Source: Egicoccus sp. AB-alg2
GTDB taxonomy: Bacteria > Actinomycetota > Nitriliruptoria > Nitriliruptorales > Nitriliruptoraceae
Assembly (NCBI RefSeq): GCF_041821065.1
Contig: NZ_JBGUAX010000006.1
Location: 124,001 to 188,000, forward strand
Direction of reading: 5' to 3'
DNA: 64,000 nucleotides
Below the pieces are notes generated by a model. That model searched no databases. It worked only from the letters and a program-made list of their open reading frames with translations, and had not been told where the DNA came from. Position 1 is the first letter of the stretch, and the number at the start of each line of letters is the position of its first letter. Positions 47,997-58,758 of this stretch are shown here, piece after piece. The translations under genes were made by a program, and so were the position numbers.

Positions 47997-48419
47997 TCAG
48001 GACGCGGTCGTGCGCGCACCCACGCAGTCGGGGCAGCGGGCCCGGAACGTGACGTCGACGCCGAGTAGTTCGAAGCCGTGCTGCTCGCCGTCCGGTAGCC
48101 GCGGGTCGTCGACGTGGACGTCGAGCATGCGCCCGCACTCCACGCACAGCAGATGGTGGTGGGGGTGCTGGACGTTGGGGTCGTAGCGCTTGCGGCCGTC
48201 GGCGTGGGCGACCTCCAGGAGCTCGCCCATGTCCACGAGTTCATGCAGGGTGTTGTACACCGTGGCGAGGCTGACCTCGGGCAGGATCGCCCGCGCCCGG
48301 ACGAACACCTCGTCCGCCGCCAGGTGGACGTGCTCGCCAGCCATCACCTCGGCGATGACGCGTCGCTGCGCCGTCAGGCGCCAGCCACGGTCGCGCAGGC
48401 GCTCCACCAGCGGTTGCAC
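47997..48419 (-). CDS. Fur-family regulator (FurA/PerR-like)
   Basis: A 140-residue Fur-family protein. The winged helix is at residues 1-80 ([54 protein letters not shown]); the metal-binding region contains [14 protein letters not shown] (HHxHxxCxxC) and CPDC, so a structural zinc is bound by four Cys and a regulatory metal by His. It is divergent from katG with a palindromic operator in between, which is typical of FurA/CatR/PerR peroxide sensors. GTG 48419 starts the coding region. Confidence 0.92.
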
Positions 48420-48497: not shown

Positions 48498-48531
48498 GCC
48501 CCCATCCTTGGAATTGTTCTAGGTTGGGGGC
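48498..48531. promoter_or_regulatory. Fur/PerR-type operator upstream of katG
   Basis: The core TTGGAATTGTTCTAG (48508-48522) resembles the Per/Fur box (TTAGAAT-N-ATTCTAA). It is enclosed in a longer imperfect dyad, GCCCCCA...TGGGGGC, from 48498 to 48531. It lies between the divergent Fur gene (start 48419) and katG (start 48618). Confidence 0.8.
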
Positions 48532-48617
48532 GTCGCACCCGACGTGGTCGATCTGCTCGACTCGGCCGCCGTCGCCCGCAGCCCCGAGCGACCCCAGGAC
48601 CCTTCGAGGAGGACATC

Positions 48618-50816
48618 GTGTCCGACCAGCAAGCCTCGCGCCGAGAGTGGAGCGCGCGGACCACGCCCAGCCTGCAGGGCAACGAACACTGGTGGCCCGA
48701 CCAGCTCAGCCTGAACATCCTGCACCAGAAGCACCCGGACGCGAACCCGCTCGGCGAGAACTTCTCCTACGCCGAGGCGTTCTCGCAACTCGACGTCGAG
48801 GAACTGACCCGCGACGTCGACGCGCTGATGACCGACTCCCAGGACTGGTGGCCCGCCGACTGGGGTCACTACGGCCCGTTCTTCATCCGCATGTCGTGGC
48901 ACGCCGCCGGCACCTACCGTGCGATCGACGGCCGCGGCGGTGGCGGCACCGGTGCGCAGCGTTTCGCGCCGCTCAACAGCTGGCCCGACAACGGCAACCT
49001 GGACAAGGCCCGACGCCTGCTGTGGCCGGTCAAGAAGAAGTACGGCGAGAAGATCTCCTGGGCCGACCTGCTGGTCTTCGCCGGCAACCGCGCGCTGGAG
49101 ACGATGGGCTTCAAGACCTTCGGGTTCGGGTTCGGTCGCGCCGACATCTGGGCGCCCGAGGACGACATCTACTGGGGTCCGGAGACCGAGTGGCTCGCCA
49201 CCAACGACGAGCGCTACACCGGCGACTGGGAGGACGGCAGCCGGATCCTCGACAACCCGCTCGCCGCGGTCCAGATGGGTCTGATCTACGTCAACCCGGA
49301 GGGCCCCAACGGCGTCCCGGACGCGCTGAAGTCCGCACAGGACGTGCGCGAGACCTTCGGCCGCATGGGAATGAACGACCGCGAGACGGTCGCGCTGACG
49401 GTCGGTGGGCACACCTTCGGCAAGATGCACGGCAACGGGCCGAAGGAGGCGGTCGGCGGTCTGCCCGAGGAATCCAAGATCCACGAGCAGGGCTTCGGCT
49501 GGGCCAACACCCACGAGACCGGCCTGGGTGAGTACACCATCACCTCGGGGTTGGAGGGCGCCTGGACGCCGACGCCGACCACGTGGGACAACACCTACCT
49601 GGAGACCCTCTTCTCCCACCAGTGGGAGGTCACCGAGTCGCCGGCCGGCGCGAAGCAGTGGGAACCCGTCGAGGTCAAGGACGGGTTCTGGGTCCCCGAC
49701 GCGCACGTCGAGGGCAAGCTGAACCCGCCGGTGATGAACACCGCCGACATGGCGATGATCGCCGACCCCGACTACCTCGAGATCGCCAAGGAGTTCCGCG
49801 AGAACCCGGACGTGCTCGCCGACGAGTTCGCCCGTGCCTGGTACAAGCTCCTGCACCGTGACATGGGCCCGAGCGCCCGTTACCTCGGCCCCCAGGTGCC
49901 CGACGAGGAGCTCATCTGGCAGGACCCGGTCCCCGCGCACGAGGGGCCGCTGGTCACCGAGGACGAGATCGCGACGCTCAAGCAGCAGATCGCGGACTCC
50001 GGGCTGACCGCCGCACAGCTGGTCGGCACGGCCTGGGCGTCGGCGTGCACCTACCGCCAGACCGACCACCGCGGTGGTGCCAACGGCGCACGCATCCGTC
50101 TCGAGCCGCAGGCGAGCTGGGACGTCAACCTGCGCTCGGGCGTGTCGGCCGTGATCGACAAGCTCGAGGAGGTCAAGGACGCGTCCGGGTTCAACATCTC
50201 GCTCGCGGACACGATCGTCCTCGGCGGCAGCGTCGGTGTCGAGATGGCGGCCAAGGCCGCCGGTCGCGACATCACGGTCCCGTTCACCCCGGGTCGCACC
50301 GACGCGACCCAGGAGATGACCGAGGTCGACACGTTCGCCTACCTCGAGCCGGTGCACGACGCCTTCCGCAACTACCTGCAGAAGCAGACGAGCATCCCCT
50401 CCGAGCACTACCTGATCGACCGGGCGTTCATGCTCAACCTCAGCGCGCCGGAGATGGCGGCCCTGCTCGGTGGCATGCGCGCCATCGGCGCGAACGCCGG
50501 TGACGACAACACCGACGGCTACTTCACCGACCGTCTGGGTCAGCTCACGAACGACTTCTTCTTCAACCTCGTCGACATGGGCACCGTCTGGGAGCCCATC
50601 GGCGAGGGCGAGGACCGCTTCGAGGGCAAGGACCGCAAGACGGGCGAGACGAGGTGGACCGCCACGCGCGTCGACCTGATCTTCGGCTCCAACTCGGTGC
50701 TGCGCGCCATCGCCGAGGAGTACGCCTCCGCCGGCGGCGAGGACCACATGATCGACAAGTTCGTCCAGGGCTGGGTCAAGGTCATGCAGAACGACCGCTT
50801 CGATCTGCACCGCTGA
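48618..50816 (+). CDS. katG: Catalase-peroxidase KatG
   Basis: A 732-residue bifunctional haem enzyme that breaks down hydrogen peroxide and oxidises peroxidatic substrates. The distal pocket is [10 protein letters not shown] with Arg91, Trp94 and His95. Tyr224 ([10 protein letters not shown]) and Met250 lie at the spacing of the Met-Tyr-Trp crosslink; proximal His265 is in [11 protein letters not shown]. The C-terminal duplicated, haem-free domain starts around residue 420. The length is normal for KatG. GTG 48618 follows GAGGAGG by 5 bases. It is regulated by the adjacent Fur-family protein, by the operator at 48498-48531. A hairpin terminator follows. Confidence 0.98.
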
Positions 50817-50939: not shown

Positions 50940-51128
50940 ATGGCCGTGGAGCCCATGCTCGCCTATCTCGACGGCGGCACCGCCAGCCTGGTGCTGGCCG
51001 CCCTGGCCGCGGGCGGCGCTGGCATCGCCGTCCTCGTCAAGATGTACTGGAACCGGTTCCTCGGGCTCTTCTCGGAGAAGCACCGCCTGGCCGCCGAGGA
51101 AGCTCGCAGCCAGCTGACGGGCGAATGA
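50940..51128 (+). CDS. Micro-membrane protein of a three-gene module
   Basis: A 62-residue protein with one transmembrane helix (about residues 13-35, ASLVLAALAAGGAGIAVLV) followed by KMYWNRFLGLFSEKHR and a short charged tail. The preceding MLAYLDGGTAS fits a pattern I recall from small proteins next to sulfatase/methyltransferase genes. No named domain. The start at ATG 50940 has GGGAGG upstream. Its TGA overlaps the ATG of the methyltransferase gene (ATGA), so it is translationally coupled and probably part of the same complex. Confidence 0.8.
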   Translation: MAVEPMLAYLDGGTASLVLAALAAGGAGIAVLVKMYWNRFLGLFSEKHRLAAEEARSQLTGE

Positions 51129-52651
51129 CCGAACCTGCGCAGCCGCGTCCCACGCACGAAGGCGACCCGACGGCGCAGCCGGACCCCGGCTCCTTCCGCG
51201 ACCCCACCAACCGGGTGTTCCTCCACGAGGACCGGGTGCTGCGCGGCCTCGACGAGACCGCCGCACGGGACTTCGCCTCCCTTCGCGCCTCCGGCTTCTT
51301 CGCCCGGGCCGTGGAGCAGCGGCAACTCGTCGCGACGGAGCTGCTGGACGCGCCACCGGCCGCGCTGGAGCAGGCGGGTTGGGCGGCCGTGCTCGAGCAC
51401 GAGCGGATCCCGGTCGTCACCTACCCGTACGAGTGGCCCTTCGCGATGCTCCGCGACGCGGCCCTGCTCCAGCTCGACCTGCCCCTTGCGGCGCTCGACG
51501 AGGGCCTCACCACCAAGGACGCCACCCCCTACAACGTCCAGTTCGTGGGTGCCCGGCCGACGCACATCGACCTCGGCTCCTTCGAGCGGCTGTCTCCCGG
51601 CGAGCCGTGGTTCGGCTACCGGCAGTTCTGCCAACAGTTCCTCTACCCGCTGCTGCTGACCGCCCGTCGCGGGGTGCCCCACCAGCCGCTGCTGCGCGGC
51701 TCGGTGCGCGGCGTCACGCCACAGACCTGCGCGGCCTGCCTGCGCTGGTGGGACCTGGCGCGACCGTCGCTGTTCATCCACGTCGCCCTGCAGAGCCTCG
51801 CCGAGCGGCGCAAGACCGATGCCGGCCCCGACGGCCACGACGTGCGGGCCGAGCTGAAGTCGGCCGGCTACGGACCGGCGGTCATCCGCGGTCAGCTGCG
51901 CAAGCTGCGCAAGCTGGTCGAACGGCTCGAGTGGAAGCAGACCCGGTCCGTGTGGTCGGAGTACTCCGACCGTCAGCACTACGACCCCGAGGACCTGCGC
52001 GCCAAGGAGGAGCTCGTCCGCCGCGTGGCCGGCGAGCGCCCGCGGCGGCAGGTGCTGGACCTCGGCGCCAACGACGGGCACTTCAGCCGCATCGCCCTCG
52101 AGTCCGCCGAGTACGTGGTCGCCGTGGACCACGATCCGCTGGTCGTCGACCGGCTCTACCGGCAGCTGTCCGAGCAGGGTGAGGAGCGGATCCTGCCGCT
52201 CGTGATGGACCTCGCCGACCCGTCGGGCGGGCTCGGCTGGCGGGCGCGCGAACGGTCGCCGTTCGTCGCGCGGGTCCGTCCCGACCTCGTGCTGTGCCTG
52301 GCGCTGGTCCACCACCTCGCGATCTCGGAGAGCATCCCGCTGGACGAGGTCGTGGCCTTCCTCGCGGAGTTCTCCAGCGAGGTGATCCTCGAGTTCCCCA
52401 CGCCCGAGGACCCGATGGTGGCGCTGCTGATGGCCCAGAAGAAGGACCGGGCGGTGCCGGCCGACCGGTACGGCGTCGACGCGCTCGAGCGGGCGCTGGC
52501 CACGCGGTTCGACACGCGGCTGCGCACGGAGCGGGGCACGCGGCTGCTGTACGACCTCGTCCCCCGCGGCCGCGGCCAGCCGATCGAGGTCCACGCGACC
52601 GCGTCCGCGCAGCCCGTGCCCGACGGCGAGACGCGGCCCTCGGGGCCGTGA
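51125..52651 (+). CDS. Methyltransferase with extra N-terminal domain
   Basis: A 508-residue protein. Residues about 300-470 are a SAM-dependent methyltransferase: motif I VLDLGANDGHFSRIAL, then EYVVAVDHDPL and PDLVLCLALVHHLA. The first 270 residues form another domain with TKDATPYNVQF followed by PTHIDLGSFERL; the ordering of an Asp/Asn loop and a downstream Asp resembles the catalytic and metal loops of kinase-like folds. That likeness is inference only. It is translationally coupled to the small membrane gene before it and the sulfatase after it, so methylation or other transfer on an envelope polymer is likely. Confidence 0.82.
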   Translation: MTEPAQPRPTHEGDPTAQPDPGSFRDPTNRVFLHEDRVLRGLDETAARDFASLRASGFFARAVEQRQLVATELLDAPPAALEQAGWAAVLEHERIPVVTYPYEWPFAMLRDAALLQLDLPLAALDEGLTTKDATPYNVQFVGARPTHIDLGSFERLSPGEPWFGYRQFCQQFLYPLLLTARRGVPHQPLLRGSVRGVTPQTCAACLRWWDLARPSLFIHVALQSLAERRKTDAGPDGHDVRAELKSAGYGPAVIRGQLRKLRKLVERLEWKQTRSVWSEYSDRQHYDPEDLRAKEELVRRVAGERPRRQVLDLGANDGHFSRIALESAEYVVAVDHDPLVVDRLYRQLSEQGEERILPLVMDLADPSGGLGWRARERSPFVARVRPDLVLCLALVHHLAISESIPLDEVVAFLAEFSSEVILEFPTPEDPMVALLMAQKKDRAVPADRYGVDALERALATRFDTRLRTERGTRLLYDLVPRGRGQPIEVHATASAQPVPDGETRPSGP

Positions 52652-54792
52652 GCACCACGGAGCGGCCGGCCGACGCTCGCCCCGGCCCTGGTGGCGGTCC
52701 CCTGGTGCGGGCGCTGCGGATCTTCGGGCTGTGCGGACTGGCGGTGGCGCAGCCGCTGCTCGATGTACTCGGAGGTGGGGTCGCCTTCTTCGTGACGCAC
52801 GACGCGTCGCGCCTGCAGGTGCTGCTGGTGGCGGTGGCCGTGCTGCTGGGGCCGGCGGCGCTGCTCGTGCTCGTGGTGGAGGCGCTCCGGGCCTGGTCCG
52901 TGGCGGTTGGCGAGCGAGCGATGGCCGTGGTGGTCGGCCTCCTGCTGGGCGTGACGATCGCCTCGGCGGTGGACCGGGCCGCCGCACTGCCGCTGCCGGC
53001 GTACGCCGCACTGCTGCTGGTGATCGGCGCGGCCGGTGCGACGGCCTACGCCCGGCTGGAGCCGGTGCGCAGCTTCACCACGTTCCTGGCGCCGGCGCCG
53101 CTGCTGTTCGCCGTGGTGTTCCTGTTCTTCTCGCCGGTGCGTGCGCTGGTGGTGGGCGACGACCCGGAGTCGCTGGCGGCGGCCGAGGCCCGCGCGACCG
53201 ACGTCGTCATGGTGATCTTCGACGAGCTCCCGCTCGGTGCGCTGCTGGACGAATCCGGGGCGATCGACGAGGCACGCTTCCCGGGGTTCGCCCGGCTGGC
53301 CGCCACCTCGACGTGGTACCCGAACGCCACCACCGTGGCGCCGGAGACGACCGCGGCGGTGCCGGCGCTGCTGACCGGCCGGCTGCCGGAGGTGGGGGCC
53401 GAGGCGGCCGCGTCGCCGGTGGCGGCCGCGCATCCGCGGTCGCTGTTCACCATGCTGGGCGGCTCGCATGACCTGCGCGTGCACGAATGGGTCACGCGCC
53501 TGTGCCCCGCCGAACTGTGTGACGAGCGTGCCCAGACGGTCGCGGAGGAGCAGCCGAGCCTGTCTCGGGACGTCGCGGTCGTGGCCGGCCACCAGGTACT
53601 GCCGCAGCGCCTCGCGGACCGTGTACTGCCCTCCATCTCCGGCCAGTGGGCGGGCTTCGGGATGGACTCGCCCGCCACGGACGGGACCGGGACCGGCGAC
53701 CCAACCGACCAGGACGGGCCGGACGGCGATGGCGAGGCGGAGGCGCGTCCGGAGCGGCACCGGTTCGGCGCGGCGCTGCAGGCCCTGGAGGCGGAGGCGA
53801 GCCCGCAGCTGTGGTTCGCACACGAGCGGCTCCCCCACCGTCCGTCGACGCTGCTTCCCGACGGCACCCGCTACCCGCGGGCCTTTCCGTTCGACTGGTG
53901 GAGTCATCACCGGCCGGACGCCTCGATCGTCTACCGCCAGCAGTTCCAGCTGCAGGTGAAGTACGTCGACCGTCTGCTCGAGCAGCTGCTCGACCGCCTG
54001 GAGCGGGAGGACCTGGAAGACGCGCTGCTGGTCGTCGTCAGCGACCACGGGCTGAGCTTCCGGCCGCACGGCCACCCACGGGCGTATTCCAGCCCGCAGC
54101 CCTCGGAGCTGGCCGACGTCCTGCCGGTACCGCTGTTCGTGCGCTACCCGTCACAGGAAGACGGCGAGGTGGATCCGCGCGACGCCAGCGTGATCGACGT
54201 CGTGCCCACCGTCGCCGATGTGGTGGGCGTACAGCTGCCGACGGACTGGGAGTTCGACGGCCGTTCGTTGCGGGCCGAGGACGCCGGTGAGCGGCGTCAG
54301 TTCTGGCAGCCGCTGGGCGAGCTGTCCGACGACCTCGCGGTTGCCGATCCGCTGCAGCTGGCCCGCGAGAACGCCGAGCTGTTCGGCCCGGGCGGTGGTC
54401 CGCACGACCTCTACGCCATGGGTCCGCACGGGGATCTGGTCGGCGAGGCGCTGCAGCGCGGGGACCCCGTCGAGGAAGCGGTCGTCGAGCCGCTCCATCA
54501 CGACGCCTACGACGACGTCGATCCGGAGTCCGGCCGGCTGCCGGCGTTCTACGAGGCCGAGGTGTCCGGGCTCGAGTCCGGGCAGTGGGTGGCAGTGGCC
54601 GTCGACGACGTCGTCGCGGGCGTCGGTCTGGTGATCGAGCCCTCGGAGGGGCCGGCCCGCATCAAGGCGATGCTCGACCCGAGCCTGTTCCTGGCGGGCA
54701 GCAACGACGTCGAGGCCTTCCTGGTCGACGAGGACACCTCGACCCTGCGCCCGATCGCGCGTGCGCCCGAGTCAGCCGGCACGGCCGGGTGA
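52648..54792 (+). CDS. Membrane-anchored sulfatase-like hydrolase
   Basis: A 714-residue protein. Residues about 20-170 contain five hydrophobic segments; the rest is an extracytoplasmic alkaline-phosphatase-superfamily domain. DVVMVIFDELPLGALL begins it with the metal-binding Asp; TTVAPETTAAVPALLTG carries the position of the nucleophile (Thr or Ser); VVVSDHGLSF and DASVIDVVPTVADVVGV complete the sulfatase/phosphoglycerol-transferase fold. A formylglycine Cys motif is not seen, so it may be a phosphotransferase or phosphodiesterase. GTG 52648 overlaps the methyltransferase stop by 4 bp. It probably modifies surface glycans. Confidence 0.85.
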   Translation: MSTTERPADARPGPGGGPLVRALRIFGLCGLAVAQPLLDVLGGGVAFFVTHDASRLQVLLVAVAVLLGPAALLVLVVEALRAWSVAVGERAMAVVVGLLLGVTIASAVDRAAALPLPAYAALLLVIGAAGATAYARLEPVRSFTTFLAPAPLLFAVVFLFFSPVRALVVGDDPESLAAAEARATDVVMVIFDELPLGALLDESGAIDEARFPGFARLAATSTWYPNATTVAPETTAAVPALLTGRLPEVGAEAAASPVAAAHPRSLFTMLGGSHDLRVHEWVTRLCPAELCDERAQTVAEEQPSLSRDVAVVAGHQVLPQRLADRVLPSISGQWAGFGMDSPATDGTGTGDPTDQDGPDGDGEAEARPERHRFGAALQALEAEASPQLWFAHERLPHRPSTLLPDGTRYPRAFPFDWWSHHRPDASIVYRQQFQLQVKYVDRLLEQLLDRLEREDLEDALLVVVSDHGLSFRPHGHPRAYSSPQPSELADVLPVPLFVRYPSQEDGEVDPRDASVIDVVPTVADVVGVQLPTDWEFDGRSLRAEDAGERRQFWQPLGELSDDLAVADPLQLARENAELFGPGGGPHDLYAMGPHGDLVGEALQRGDPVEEAVVEPLHHDAYDDVDPESGRLPAFYEAEVSGLESGQWVAVAVDDVVAGVGLVIEPSEGPARIKAMLDPSLFLAGSNDVEAFLVDEDTSTLRPIARAPESAGTAG

Positions 54793-54870: not shown

Positions 54871-55824
54871 ATGAGCGAACAGCGGATCATCACACAGGAC
54901 ACCTTCGGCGGCCCCGAGGTGTTGCGCCCGGGCACGGCTGCGGTCCCGGACCCGCTCCCGACCGAGATCCGCGTCCGCGTCACCGCCGCCGGCGTCAACC
55001 CGGTCGATGCCAAGACGCGATCGGGACGGGGCATGGCCTCGGTGCTCGGCGAACCACCGTTCGTGCTCGGGTGGGACGTCGCCGGCACCGTGGACGCGGT
55101 GGGGCGTGGGGTCACCCTGTTCGGCGTCGGTGACCGGGTCATGGGCATGCCACGGTTCCCCCAGCAGGCCGCCGCCTATGCGGAGTACGTCACGGCCCCG
55201 TCACGGCATTTCGTCGCGACCCCGAACGGCCTCGACGACGTGCACGCCGGTGCCCTGCCGATGGCTGCGCTGACCGCCTGGCAGTCGCTGGTCGACACGG
55301 CCCACGTCGCGTCCGGCGACCGGGTCCTCGTGCAGGGCGCCGGCGGCGGGGTCGGGCACGTCGCCGTGCAGATCGCCAAGGCCCGGGGCGCCCACGTCGT
55401 CGCGGTCGCCAGTGCCGCCAAGCACGACCTGCTCCATGACCTCGGAGCCGACGAACTGATCGACTACCGCGACGCGGACCTGGCCGAAGCCACGCAGCCC
55501 GTCGACGTCGTGTTCGACCTCGTCGGTGGCGACGCGACGGTCGCGTCGATCCAGACACTCCGGCGCGGCGGGCAGGTCGTGATCGCGCCGGGTGGCCTCG
55601 CCGACGATGCCCGGCGGCTCGCCGAGGACCGCGGCGTCCGCCTGGTGCCGATCCTGGTCGAGCCGGACCGGGCCGGCCTGCTGGCCGCCAGCGTCCTGGT
55701 CGCCGACGGCCGCCTCCGTGTCCACGTGAGCAGGACGTTCCCGTTGGCGGACGCCCGCTCCGCCCACGAGGCGATCGAGTCCGGTCACACGCCGGGCAAG
55801 CTGGTGCTGACCGTCGGTGCCTGA
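54871..55824 (+). CDS. NADP-dependent quinone oxidoreductase-like MDR
   Basis: A 317-residue zinc-free MDR protein. VTAAGVNPVDAKTRSG and LGWDVAGTVDAVG are the N-terminal signature, VLVQGAGGGVGHVAVQIAKARGAHVV is the NADPH-binding Rossmann motif, and the C-terminal HTPGKLVLTV is typical of quinone reductases. No Cys zinc ligands are present. It probably reduces quinones or enones in the cytoplasm. Its 3' end overlaps the convergent IclR gene by 40 bp. Confidence 0.9.
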   Translation: MSEQRIITQDTFGGPEVLRPGTAAVPDPLPTEIRVRVTAAGVNPVDAKTRSGRGMASVLGEPPFVLGWDVAGTVDAVGRGVTLFGVGDRVMGMPRFPQQAAAYAEYVTAPSRHFVATPNGLDDVHAGALPMAALTAWQSLVDTAHVASGDRVLVQGAGGGVGHVAVQIAKARGAHVVAVASAAKHDLLHDLGADELIDYRDADLAEATQPVDVVFDLVGGDATVASIQTLRRGGQVVIAPGGLADDARRLAEDRGVRLVPILVEPDRAGLLAASVLVADGRLRVHVSRTFPLADARSAHEAIESGHTPGKLVLTVGA

Positions 55825-56624
55825 GCGCGGATCCGCCCTTCGATCTCGGTCACCGCGGCGTAGAGGTCGTCGCGATGCTGCTCGACGACTCGTTCGACGC
55901 TGAGTACCCGACGGCGCCAGGTGAGGTTGATGCAGCCGATCACCCGTTCGCTGCTGCGGATCGGCACGGCGATCGACATCCGCTGGTCGTCGTGGACGTC
56001 CCGACCACCGGCGTAGTCGCCGCCGAAGTCCGGGTCACGAACGCTGCAGCCGCGTGCCCGCGTCTCACGCACCATCCGTTCGATCCACGCGTCGTCGTGG
56101 GCGAGTTCGTGGCCGGGCGTCGTCTTCTGCCGCAACCGTCGCAGCACCGACTCCCGTTCGGTCGCGGCGCAGAACGCGAGGTAGGCCCGGCCGGACGCCG
56201 AGCGCAACATGTTGACCCGGTAGCCGACCGGGTTGCGCCGCACGTCGTCGAAGTACGCCTTGCGGCTGTTGGTCTCCAGCGTCTCCATGTAGTCCAGCCG
56301 CGGCACCGACAGCACCGATGGCCACCGGCTCTTCGTCACGAGGTCCTCGAGAACGGGCGAGGCGACCTCCACGAGCCAGTCCGTGTCGTCGAGCTGGCCG
56401 CGGTGCAGCAGCGAATGGCTCGGCAGGAACGCGCCGTCGGCCAGCCGCTGCCAGACGAAGCCCTGCTGGTGGCAGGTGAACAGGATCCGCGTCAGCGTGC
56501 TCTTGGGCAGGCCTGTGGCGAGGTGGAGGTCGTGGAGGCTCGCCGCCCGCATCTCGTGCAGCACCTTCAGCACCTGCAGGCCACGGCCGAGCGCCGTGAT
56601 CGGTTCGACCTGGTACTGCCGCAA
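55785..56624 (-). CDS. IclR-family regulator near ketone-carboxylation genes
   Basis: A regulator of about 279 residues. HTH region: LHDLHLATGLPKSTLTRILFTCHQQGF. Effector domain: VLEDLVTKSRWPSVLSVPRLD, YRVNMLRSASGRAYLAFCAATE and VIGCINLTWRRR. The frame has no good ATG close to the domain; TTG 56624 with a GGGA-like site is preferred, since an ATG at 56825 would lie inside the divergent synthetase gene. It is divergent from the acetoacetyl-CoA synthetase gene, so it probably regulates that operon. Its stop lies 40 bp inside the convergent MDR gene. Confidence 0.82.
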   Translation of the reverse strand: MRQYQVEPITALGRGLQVLKVLHEMRAASLHDLHLATGLPKSTLTRILFTCHQQGFVWQRLADGAFLPSHSLLHRGQLDDTDWLVEVASPVLEDLVTKSRWPSVLSVPRLDYMETLETNSRKAYFDDVRRNPVGYRVNMLRSASGRAYLAFCAATERESVLRRLRQKTTPGHELAHDDAWIERMVRETRARGCSVRDPDFGGDYAGGRDVHDDQRMSIAVPIRSSERVIGCINLTWRRRVLSVERVVEQHRDDLYAAVTEIEGRIRAQAPTVSTSLPGV

Positions 56625-56733
56625 GCTCGTCCCACGTTCCGGTCTCCGAAATCCTATCGTTTTCTCCTTGCCCTTCGTCCGGAGCCGGGGCAGCCTCGAT
56701 CGTGGAGAGCGGGAGAGGCCGGGAGCAGGCGAG

Positions 56734-58758
56734 GTGGTCGACCAGGTCGTCGGGGCCGGTACGGCGCATGGCGTGGCGGAGGGCGAGACCCTCTGGTCCC
56801 CCAGCGCCGAGTGGATCGAGCGCACGAACCTGACCCACTTCCTGGAGTGGTTGCGCGACCGGCGGGGCCACGACTTCGGGGACTACTTCGAGCTGTGGCG
56901 CTGGTCGACGACCGACCTCGAGGGATTCTGGGGCGCGCTCTGGGACTACTTCGACATCCAGGCGTCGGCGCCGCCGCAGCGAGTCCTCGGCCGTCGCGAG
57001 ATGCCGGGGGCCGAGTGGTTTCCCGGTGCCCGGCTCAACTACGCCCAGCACGTCCTCCGCCAGGTGCGTCCCGGCAGCGACGCGCTCTACCACGTCGGCG
57101 AGGACGTGCCCTCGACCGGGATGGCCTGGGAGGAGTTGGCCGCCCAGGTCCGGACGCTGGCGAGCCGGCTGCGCGAGCTCGGCGTGCAGCCGGGGCAGCG
57201 GGTCGCCGCCTACGTGCCCAACATCCCCGAGGCCATGGTCGCGCTGTTCGCGACGACCGCCATCGGCGCCGTGTGGGCGAGCTGTTCACCGGACTTCGGA
57301 TGGCGCGGCGCGGCCGACCGGTTCGCCCAGCTCGAACCGACCGTGCTGTTCGCCGTCGACGGATACCGGTACGGCGGCCGGGAGTTCGACCGACGCGACG
57401 AGGTGCGCCAGCTGGTCGAGGCACTGCCGACGCTCACCCAGGTCGTGCACGTCTCGCACCGGTTCGGCGACGGCACGCCCCCGACGACCGAGAACGTGGC
57501 GAGCCACCGCTGGGAGGACGTCCTCGACGGTCCAGCCGTCCCGGCGGAGGAGTTCGCGTTCGAGCAGGTGCCGTTCGACCATCCCCTGTGGGTGCTGTTC
57601 TCCTCGGGTACCACGGGACTGCCGAAGGCGATCGTGCACGGCCACGGCGGGATCCTGCTCGAGCAGCTCAAGCTCCAGACCTTCCACATGGACCTGCGGC
57701 GCGGGGACCGGCTGTTCTTCTTCACGACGACCAGCTGGATGATGTGGAACTTCATCGCGAGCTCGCTGCTGCTTGGCGTCGCCCCGATCCTGTACGACGG
57801 CAACCCGGCCCATCCCGGCCCGGAGGTGCTGTGGCGCGTGGCGCAGGACGCCCGTGCGACGCTCTTCGGGGCCAGCCCCAGCTACGTGCGGCTCATGGAT
57901 CAGGCCGGCGTCGTCCCGCGCGAGCAGTTCGACCTGTCGGCGCTCCGCACGATCATGCCGGCCGGGTCACCGGTCTCCCCCGAGATCACGGCCTGGTTCT
58001 ACCGCAACGTCAAGGACGACCTGTGGGTCGCCACCGGGAGCGGCGGCACCGACTGCTGCACCGGGTTCGTCGGTGGTGTGCCCACGCTGCCGGTCCGGGC
58101 CGGCGAGATCCAGGCCCCCTCCCTCGGTGTGGCGGTCGCAGCGTTCGCCCACGACGGCCGACCGGTGGTCGACGAGGTCGGCGAGCTCGTGATAACCGAA
58201 CCGATGCCGTCGATGCCGCTCGGCTTCTGGGGCGACCGGGACCACCAGCGGTACCGCGAGACGTACTTCGCCGACTTCCCGGGCGTCTGGCGGCACGGCG
58301 ACTTCTTCCGCATCAACGAGCGGGGCGGCTGCTACGTGCTGGGGCGGTCGGACGCCACGCTCAACCGTCACGGCGTCCGCATCGGCACCGCCGAGATCTA
58401 CCGCACCCTCGCGCAGCTCGACGAGGTCGAGGACGCGCTGATCGTGAACCTCGAACGCGCCGACGGCGGGTTCTTCATGCCGCTGTTCGTCAAGCCCGCA
58501 CCCGACGTGGAGTTCGACGCGAGCGTCGTCGACCGGATCCGCGACCGGCTGCGGCGCGACTACACGCCGCGCCACGTCCCCGACGACGTCGTGGCCGTGC
58601 CCGACATCCCCGTCACCTTGACCGGGAAGAAGCTGGAGGTGCCAGTCCGCAAGCTCCTGCTCGGCACACCCGTCGAGCAGGCCGTCAACCTCGAGGCGGT
58701 GGCGAACCCTGCCGCGCTCGAGCCGTTCCTGGAGTACGCACGTCAGCACGCCATGTGA
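56734..58758 (+). CDS. Acetoacetate-CoA ligase
   Basis: A 674-residue adenylate-forming enzyme. Length and N-terminal LWSPSAEWIERTNLTHFLEWL are typical of acetoacetyl-CoA synthetase (about 650 residues). ATP-binding P-loop LFSSGTTGLPKAIVHGHGG, adenylation GSGGTDCCTGFVGGVP, GDFFRINERGGCYVLGRSDA and the C-terminal catalytic Lys region LTGKKLEVPVRKLL are visible. It converts acetoacetate or a similar 3-oxoacid to its CoA ester with ATP. GTG 56734 follows GGGAG. It is the first gene of the plus-strand cluster, 67 bp before the split PEP-synthase-like genes. Confidence 0.93.
   Translation: MVDQVVGAGTAHGVAEGETLWSPSAEWIERTNLTHFLEWLRDRRGHDFGDYFELWRWSTTDLEGFWGALWDYFDIQASAPPQRVLGRREMPGAEWFPGARLNYAQHVLRQVRPGSDALYHVGEDVPSTGMAWEELAAQVRTLASRLRELGVQPGQRVAAYVPNIPEAMVALFATTAIGAVWASCSPDFGWRGAADRFAQLEPTVLFAVDGYRYGGREFDRRDEVRQLVEALPTLTQVVHVSHRFGDGTPPTTENVASHRWEDVLDGPAVPAEEFAFEQVPFDHPLWVLFSSGTTGLPKAIVHGHGGILLEQLKLQTFHMDLRRGDRLFFFTTTSWMMWNFIASSLLLGVAPILYDGNPAHPGPEVLWRVAQDARATLFGASPSYVRLMDQAGVVPREQFDLSALRTIMPAGSPVSPEITAWFYRNVKDDLWVATGSGGTDCCTGFVGGVPTLPVRAGEIQAPSLGVAVAAFAHDGRPVVDEVGELVITEPMPSMPLGFWGDRDHQRYRETYFADFPGVWRHGDFFRINERGGCYVLGRSDATLNRHGVRIGTAEIYRTLAQLDEVEDALIVNLERADGGFFMPLFVKPAPDVEFDASVVDRIRDRLRRDYTPRHVPDDVVAVPDIPVTLTGKKLEVPVRKLLLGTPVEQAVNLEAVANPAALEPFLEYARQHAM

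Follow-up and report, generated by a model that had tools for sequence, protein, structure and literature searches.

The three-gene module

A 64,000-nucleotide stretch of the Egicoccus sp. AB-alg2 genome (contig NZ_JBGUAX010000006.1, positions 124,001 to 188,000; hereafter the window, numbered from its first base) carries a compact module of three plus-strand open reading frames (ORFs), at 50940-51128, 51125-52651 and 52648-54792. The original prediction, an earlier note on this DNA, had described them as genes for a micro-membrane protein, a two-domain methyltransferase and a membrane sulfatase, a trio with no named function. That last statement has to be given up, as the relatives of genes 2 and 3 are NoeA and NoeB, whose neighbourhood is already in the literature, both for noeA/noeB of Sinorhizobium meliloti and, with its conserved neighbours, in a 2022 survey of the Legionella kinome (PMC9758233).

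Gene 1 (50940..51128) encodes a 62-residue microprotein from an ATG start with GGGAGG upstream. The ATG of gene 2 (51125..52651, 508 residues) lies in the sequence ATGA at 51125..51128, and the GTG that starts gene 3 (52648..54792, 714 residues) lies in GTGA at 52648..52651, so that both junctions are exact 4-base overlaps, as had been claimed and as the ORF coordinates confirm. The module has a GC content of 70-73%, compared with 72% in its surroundings, and a scan for sigma-70-like promoters gave no match.

Gene 2, a NoeA homologue with WbdD-like catalytic residues

Judged by its sequence, gene 2 is a NoeA homologue in which a putative atypical kinase domain is fused to a class I methyltransferase. 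A tblastn search of annotated plasmids aligned 87% of it with S. meliloti NoeA at 37% identity (E 1e-54), and relatives were also found in Singulisphaera (Planctomycetota), Gemmatirosa (Gemmatimonadota) and one deltaproteobacterium. The earlier label of a two-domain methyltransferase stood in part: there are two domains and one is a class I methyltransferase, but the other is kinase-like. This kinase-like domain covers residues 22-264 (51188..51916), and R40, D132, N137 and D149 within it are invariant in all 48 homologues aligned; D132 (51518) and N137 (51533) of the catalytic loop and the metal-binding D149 (51569) would form the kinase site. In the Legionella survey, the family (Lani_1194) is described as kinase-like, with conserved equivalents of the D..N pair and the second D and an Arg replacing the catalytic Lys (PMC9758233), and the invariant residues in the N-terminal half agree with that description and are consistent with a kinase active site. 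Gene 2 shares with that family its full-length homology, the N-terminal kinase-like domain with Arg for Lys and the C-terminal class I methyltransferase. Searched by itself against the PDB sequences, the kinase-like domain had RIO3 kinase as its sole and weak match (E 0.52), and only one of 46 members matched a Pfam kinase model, weakly (RIO1, E 0.071).

The S-adenosylmethionine (SAM)-dependent methyltransferase domain spans residues 272-482 (51938..52570). The AlphaFold2 (AF2) model of gene 2 has a mean confidence (pLDDT) of 82, and in structure searches, which this domain dominated, it matched class I methyltransferases including NodS (Z 15.6-17), with WbdD among the best Foldseek matches. 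D312, G314, N316, H396, H397, E423 and D429 are invariant in the alignment of 48, the HH pair H396-H397 being encoded at 52310-52315, and R473 is conserved in 47 of 47. A part in anti-phage defence was also considered and rejected, the only PADLOC match of gene 2 being a generic one in the methyltransferase region to mad2 (3e-6, residues 281-415), with none for genes 1 and 3.

A relationship to WbdD emerged from a profile built on the 48 NoeA sequences, which, when run against all PDB sequences, placed WbdD first (E 2.5e-5), the next non-WbdD protein following at 0.006. The alignment has three stretches, namely the SAM motif, the HH region and the kinase catalytic loop, the latter in swapped order. 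NoeA D132, N137 and D149 align with WbdD D351, N356 and D369, and the pair at 396-397 aligns with H132/H133, where WbdD numbers are alignment coordinates minus the 13-residue offset between two WbdD constructs. WbdD phosphorylates and methylates the end of the polymannose O-antigen; its D351 mutants are kinase-dead, N356 and D369 bind Mg, and mutation of H132/H133 abolishes phosphate methylation (PMC3482155). NoeA R473 lies outside the alignment, and its pairing with WbdD R203 is only a suggestion. WbdD of Escherichia coli O9a resembles gene 2 in joining a kinase and a class I methyltransferase in one chain with matching catalytic residues, but its order is methyltransferase, kinase and coiled coil, whereas in gene 2 the kinase comes first and no coiled coil follows the catalytic domains; the overall similarity is remote. 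In the text of the Legionella survey, WbdD was compared with the kinase-methyltransferase Lcin_0519 and not explicitly with NoeA (PMC9758233).

Gene 3, a membrane protein of the alkaline phosphatase superfamily

Gene 3 occupies the position of noeB in S. meliloti and matches PF00884 (8.5e-16). About five hydrophobic helices, seen both in hydropathy and in the AF2 model, form an N-terminal membrane domain (residues 18-180; 52699..53187), which is followed by a domain of the alkaline phosphatase (ALP) fold (residues 182-567; 53191..54348) that resembles sulfatases, YejM and LtaP at Z 18-20 in a model of moderate confidence. The predicted nucleophile is T234 (53347), and the predicted metal ligands are D192, H392/H397, D466 and H467. 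Among 39 homologues, the nucleophile position holds Thr in 31, Ser in 8 and Cys in none. A strand-rich C-terminal region (residues about 600-702, within 54349-54792) lies beyond the ALP domain and is common to several actinobacterial relatives.

Classical sulfatases require a Cys, or a Ser within a C/S-x-P-x-R motif, that is turned into formylglycine, and Thr is the nucleophile of the LtaS- and EptA-type phosphotransferases. Sulfatase chemistry is unlikely here because no homologue has Cys at the nucleophile position, only Thr or Ser, and the C/S-x-P-x-R motif is absent from the window protein; a formylglycine sulfatase was rejected for its nucleophile (0/39 Cys). As far as chemistry goes, the membrane sulfatase first proposed is not supported. 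The original labels, read as an arylsulfatase-type module for desulfation with a methyltransferase as accessory, are barely credible: the PF00884 match and the fold similarity to sulfatases speak for it, but the formylglycine Cys is missing from all 39 homologues and gene 2 carries an intact kinase signature.

In its membrane helices ahead of an ALP domain, its Thr nucleophile and, with the same moderate model confidence, its metal ligands, gene 3 is built like LtaS, LtaP, YejM and EptA, from which it differs in its low sequence identity and in the company of NoeA and the microprotein. This architecture gives some weight to a scheme in which NoeA would make a small phosphorylated and N- or O-methylated head group, similar to phosphocholine, that NoeB, like EptA, PptA or LtaS, would transfer from a lipid donor to an outer envelope acceptor with the assistance of the microprotein. 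Phosphoethanolamine N-methyltransferase does appear among the weak NoeA profile matches (E 0.067), but WbdD is clearly the best match and covers both domains, and no lipid-kinase signature was found, which leaves the transfer of such a head group unlikely.

Gene 1 and the microprotein family

A single transmembrane stretch is predicted for gene 1, at about residues 15-33, in keeping with the one-helix micro-membrane protein that had been described. The motif AYLDGGTAS (residues 8-16), near the N-terminus, is predicted to lie outside and the basic C-terminal tail inside, a topology inferred from hydropathy and the positive-inside rule. When 46 members were aligned, the family motif emerged as A-Y-[LI]-D-[PA]-G-[ST]-G-S; behind it come a hydrophobic segment and a basic tail of the form K..W.RRI. 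The motif Tyr is the only residue kept in all members (46/46), with the Asp present in 44. About 21 of the 46 have a signal-peptide-like segment that ends in an AHA-, ANA- or AYA-type site directly before Y[LI]D, and the others start a few residues ahead of it; both forms should place the motif on the outer face and the tail inside.

Ten members were compared with the Pfam and NCBIfam models and none matched; the string YLDPGTGS turned up nothing in the literature searched. The S. meliloti counterpart, with its Y-L-D-P-G motif, is an unnamed hypothetical gene between nodL and noeA (L040, 7748-7963). The Legionella survey reports a neighbour, Lani_1193, in 65% of neighbourhoods (PMC9758233), and this neighbour may be the microprotein.

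A useful comparison is DltX, whose invariant extracellular Tyr shuttles an acyl group from one enzyme to another (PMC12148441). Both proteins are tiny and single-pass, have a near-terminal outer motif with an invariant Tyr and are tied to an extracytoplasmic enzyme. That the microprotein is likewise a covalent shuttle, its Tyr taking up a group and passing it to NoeB, gains from the fact that this residue, the sole one kept throughout, lies right at the predicted outer membrane face. However, the A-Y-[LI]-D-[PA]-G motif is N-terminal and the outer FxYxxF of DltX C-terminal (compared by description), and the partners are NoeA and an ALP protein in place of the MBOAT and SGNH proteins of DltX; neither a C-terminal FxYxxF nor these two partners were found in the microprotein and its module. 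As NoeA is predicted to be cytoplasmic, loading of an outer Tyr would also need an extra step, and a covalent shuttle is very unlikely.

Distribution and linkage of the trio

The original prediction had named the lack of the trio outside close relatives as grounds for its refutation, and this search was carried out. The trio was found across at least four phyla and in several gene orders, in Actinomycetota, Pseudomonadota, Planctomycetota and Gemmatimonadota as well as in one deltaproteobacterium. Of 51 non-redundant gene 2 loci, gene 1 was present in 46, a gene 3-type ALP gene in 43 and all three in 41, a conservation that excludes chance association. The order microprotein-NoeA-ALP occurs 31 times, ALP-microprotein-NoeA four times, microprotein-ALP-NoeA three times and ALP-NoeA-microprotein once, and one gene is inverted in two cases. 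Since genomes have only roughly 0-9 ALP matches each, the ALP adjacency in about 40 of the 51 loci is not due to chance either. The 4-bp overlaps are not conserved: S. meliloti has a 23-bp overlap of the microprotein gene with noeA, and a 14-bp gap separates noeA from noeB. Translational coupling at a fixed ratio, which had been read from the 4-bp overlaps, is possible.

A strong NoeA match (E below 1e-20) was present in 33 of 296 sampled genomes of the window's phylum and in neither of the two further genomes sampled from its genus, which makes the distribution patchy. All 30 of the genomes with a strong microprotein match in this sample had NoeA (Fisher 5e-38). So did all five in a second sample of 200 genomes, six of them with NoeA, from the phylum of a genome labelled Pseudomonadales (Fisher 2e-9). 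Of the exceptions among NoeA genomes, two lie at contig edges and two have divergent NoeA-like proteins (G035 and G426); the genomes of these last two also have no good ALP match. Where microproteins stand apart from NoeA, they adjoin a NoeB-like ALP gene in all five genomes examined (L131-L135). NoeA and ALP proteins are correlated in their pairwise distances (rho 0.63, compared with a permuted maximum of 0.28). Near-perfect co-occurrence, together with adjacency kept through several gene orders, backs the proposal that the three products form a functional complex.

Several loci have arrangements of their own. A cluster on one contig (L135, G177 contig 12, 773-14299) combines four NoeB-like ALP genes with two microprotein genes and lacks NoeA, which lies elsewhere in the G177 genome. 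In another locus (L036, 7398-13419) the microprotein and NoeA are followed directly downstream by three NoeB-like ALP genes in tandem, and in a third (L031, 5162-5940, minus strand) the microprotein lies on the other strand from NoeA and is adjoined by a second ORF that is weakly microprotein-like.

A possible function

We tentatively favour, as an account that could well prove wrong, a phosphoryl-decoration module of the NoeA/NoeB type, in which a glycan or lipid would be phosphorylated and the phosphate methylated in the manner of WbdD, with coupling across the membrane. The NoeA kinase domain would phosphorylate a hydroxyl of a glycan or glycolipid at the cytoplasmic face, and the methyltransferase domain would then methylate that phosphate, as in WbdD. 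NoeB would act at the outer face on the phosphorylated or phosphodiester product, or transfer the phospho-group. The microprotein, with its Y-[LI]-D motif by NoeB and its basic tail by NoeA, would span the membrane and couple the two. The analysis demonstrates the conservation and co-occurrence of the trio, the kinase and methyltransferase signatures, the WbdD-like catalytic residues and the Thr/Ser nucleophile; the substrate class, the order of reactions, the direct contacts and the topology in this scheme are what we infer.

A number of observations weigh against it. The WbdD segment of each domain is weak by itself, the methyltransferase similarity is remote, and HH pairs are also found in unrelated methyltransferases. 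NodS and RebM have His or Tyr at the two places of the WbdD HH pair (PMC3482155). The gene 3 model has a pLDDT of only 64, so its details are uncertain, and the correlation of NoeA and ALP distances may stem from shared species history and not from contact. A scan of 106 flanking ORFs turned up only a few glycosyltransferases and sugar dehydratases, and polysaccharide-synthesis genes are not strongly enriched among the neighbours, both as seen with crude ORF picking in GC-rich DNA. In the window itself, the trio stands alone, with a catalase-peroxidase gene on its upstream side and a quinone-oxidoreductase-like gene on its downstream side (translations read by eye).

The rhizobial genes bear on where such a modification would end up. 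Since 1995, NoeA and NoeB have been on record as host-range nodulation proteins. In S. meliloti they lie in a nod operon with nodL (nodL-noeA-noeB), and the sources, citing Ardourel 1995, have them as host-range genes thought to modify the Nod factor (PMC9048898, PMC9758233). The module might by that token modify a diffusible signal, a lipo-chitooligosaccharide or other secreted glycolipid, and not the envelope. But the sampled actinomycetotal carriers have no nod-type neighbourhood and the rhizobial role looks like recruitment, so a diffusible signal as the general target is distinctly unlikely. The window module is like S. meliloti noeA/noeB and Legionella anisa Lani_1194/Lani_1195 in that gene 2 is homologous over nearly its full length and an ALP-fold gene is adjacent and follows it, and like S. 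meliloti in the small Y-L-D-P-G gene ahead of noeA. It differs in having no nod genes and in a longer NoeB-type protein (714 residues, with the extra C-terminal region) that is only remotely similar to rhizobial NoeB. For the phosphoryl-decoration module, the host-range role in S. meliloti fits modification of a glycan phosphate but does not prove it. The envelope-modifying role first proposed is plausible and unproven, and the original interpretation as a whole is partly supported.

The noeA/noeB neighbourhood (1995) and its conserved neighbours (2022) were known before. The present analysis adds that NoeA is linked to WbdD at the level of single residues, that the nucleophile excludes sulfatase chemistry and that the microprotein is nearly obligate. 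No paper assigning a chemistry to NoeA or NoeB was found in a literature search, and the residue-by-residue match to WbdD yields a specific, testable prediction of phosphorylation followed by phosphate methylation. The microprotein, nearly always present and annotated only as hypothetical beside noeA, belongs in any reconstitution. A bolder form of the idea, which we regard as a long shot, is a widespread three-part trans-membrane system for methyl-phosphate on glycans or lipids, with a domain-swapped WbdD-like enzyme inside, an ALP enzyme outside and obligate microproteins of a new family, whose invariant outer Tyr would take part directly in transfer. If true, it would explain the role of NoeA and NoeB in nodulation host range.

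Neighbouring genes in the window

The translations of other genes near the module were also read. A gene for a Fur/PerR-family regulator (47997-48419, minus strand) diverges from the katG-like catalase-peroxidase gene (about 48500-50816, plus strand), and a Fur/PerR-type regulator opposite a catalase-peroxidase is a classic peroxide-response pair. On the other side, at 55785-58758, a minus-strand gene for an IclR-type regulator adjoins a plus-strand acetoacetyl-CoA synthetase-like gene.

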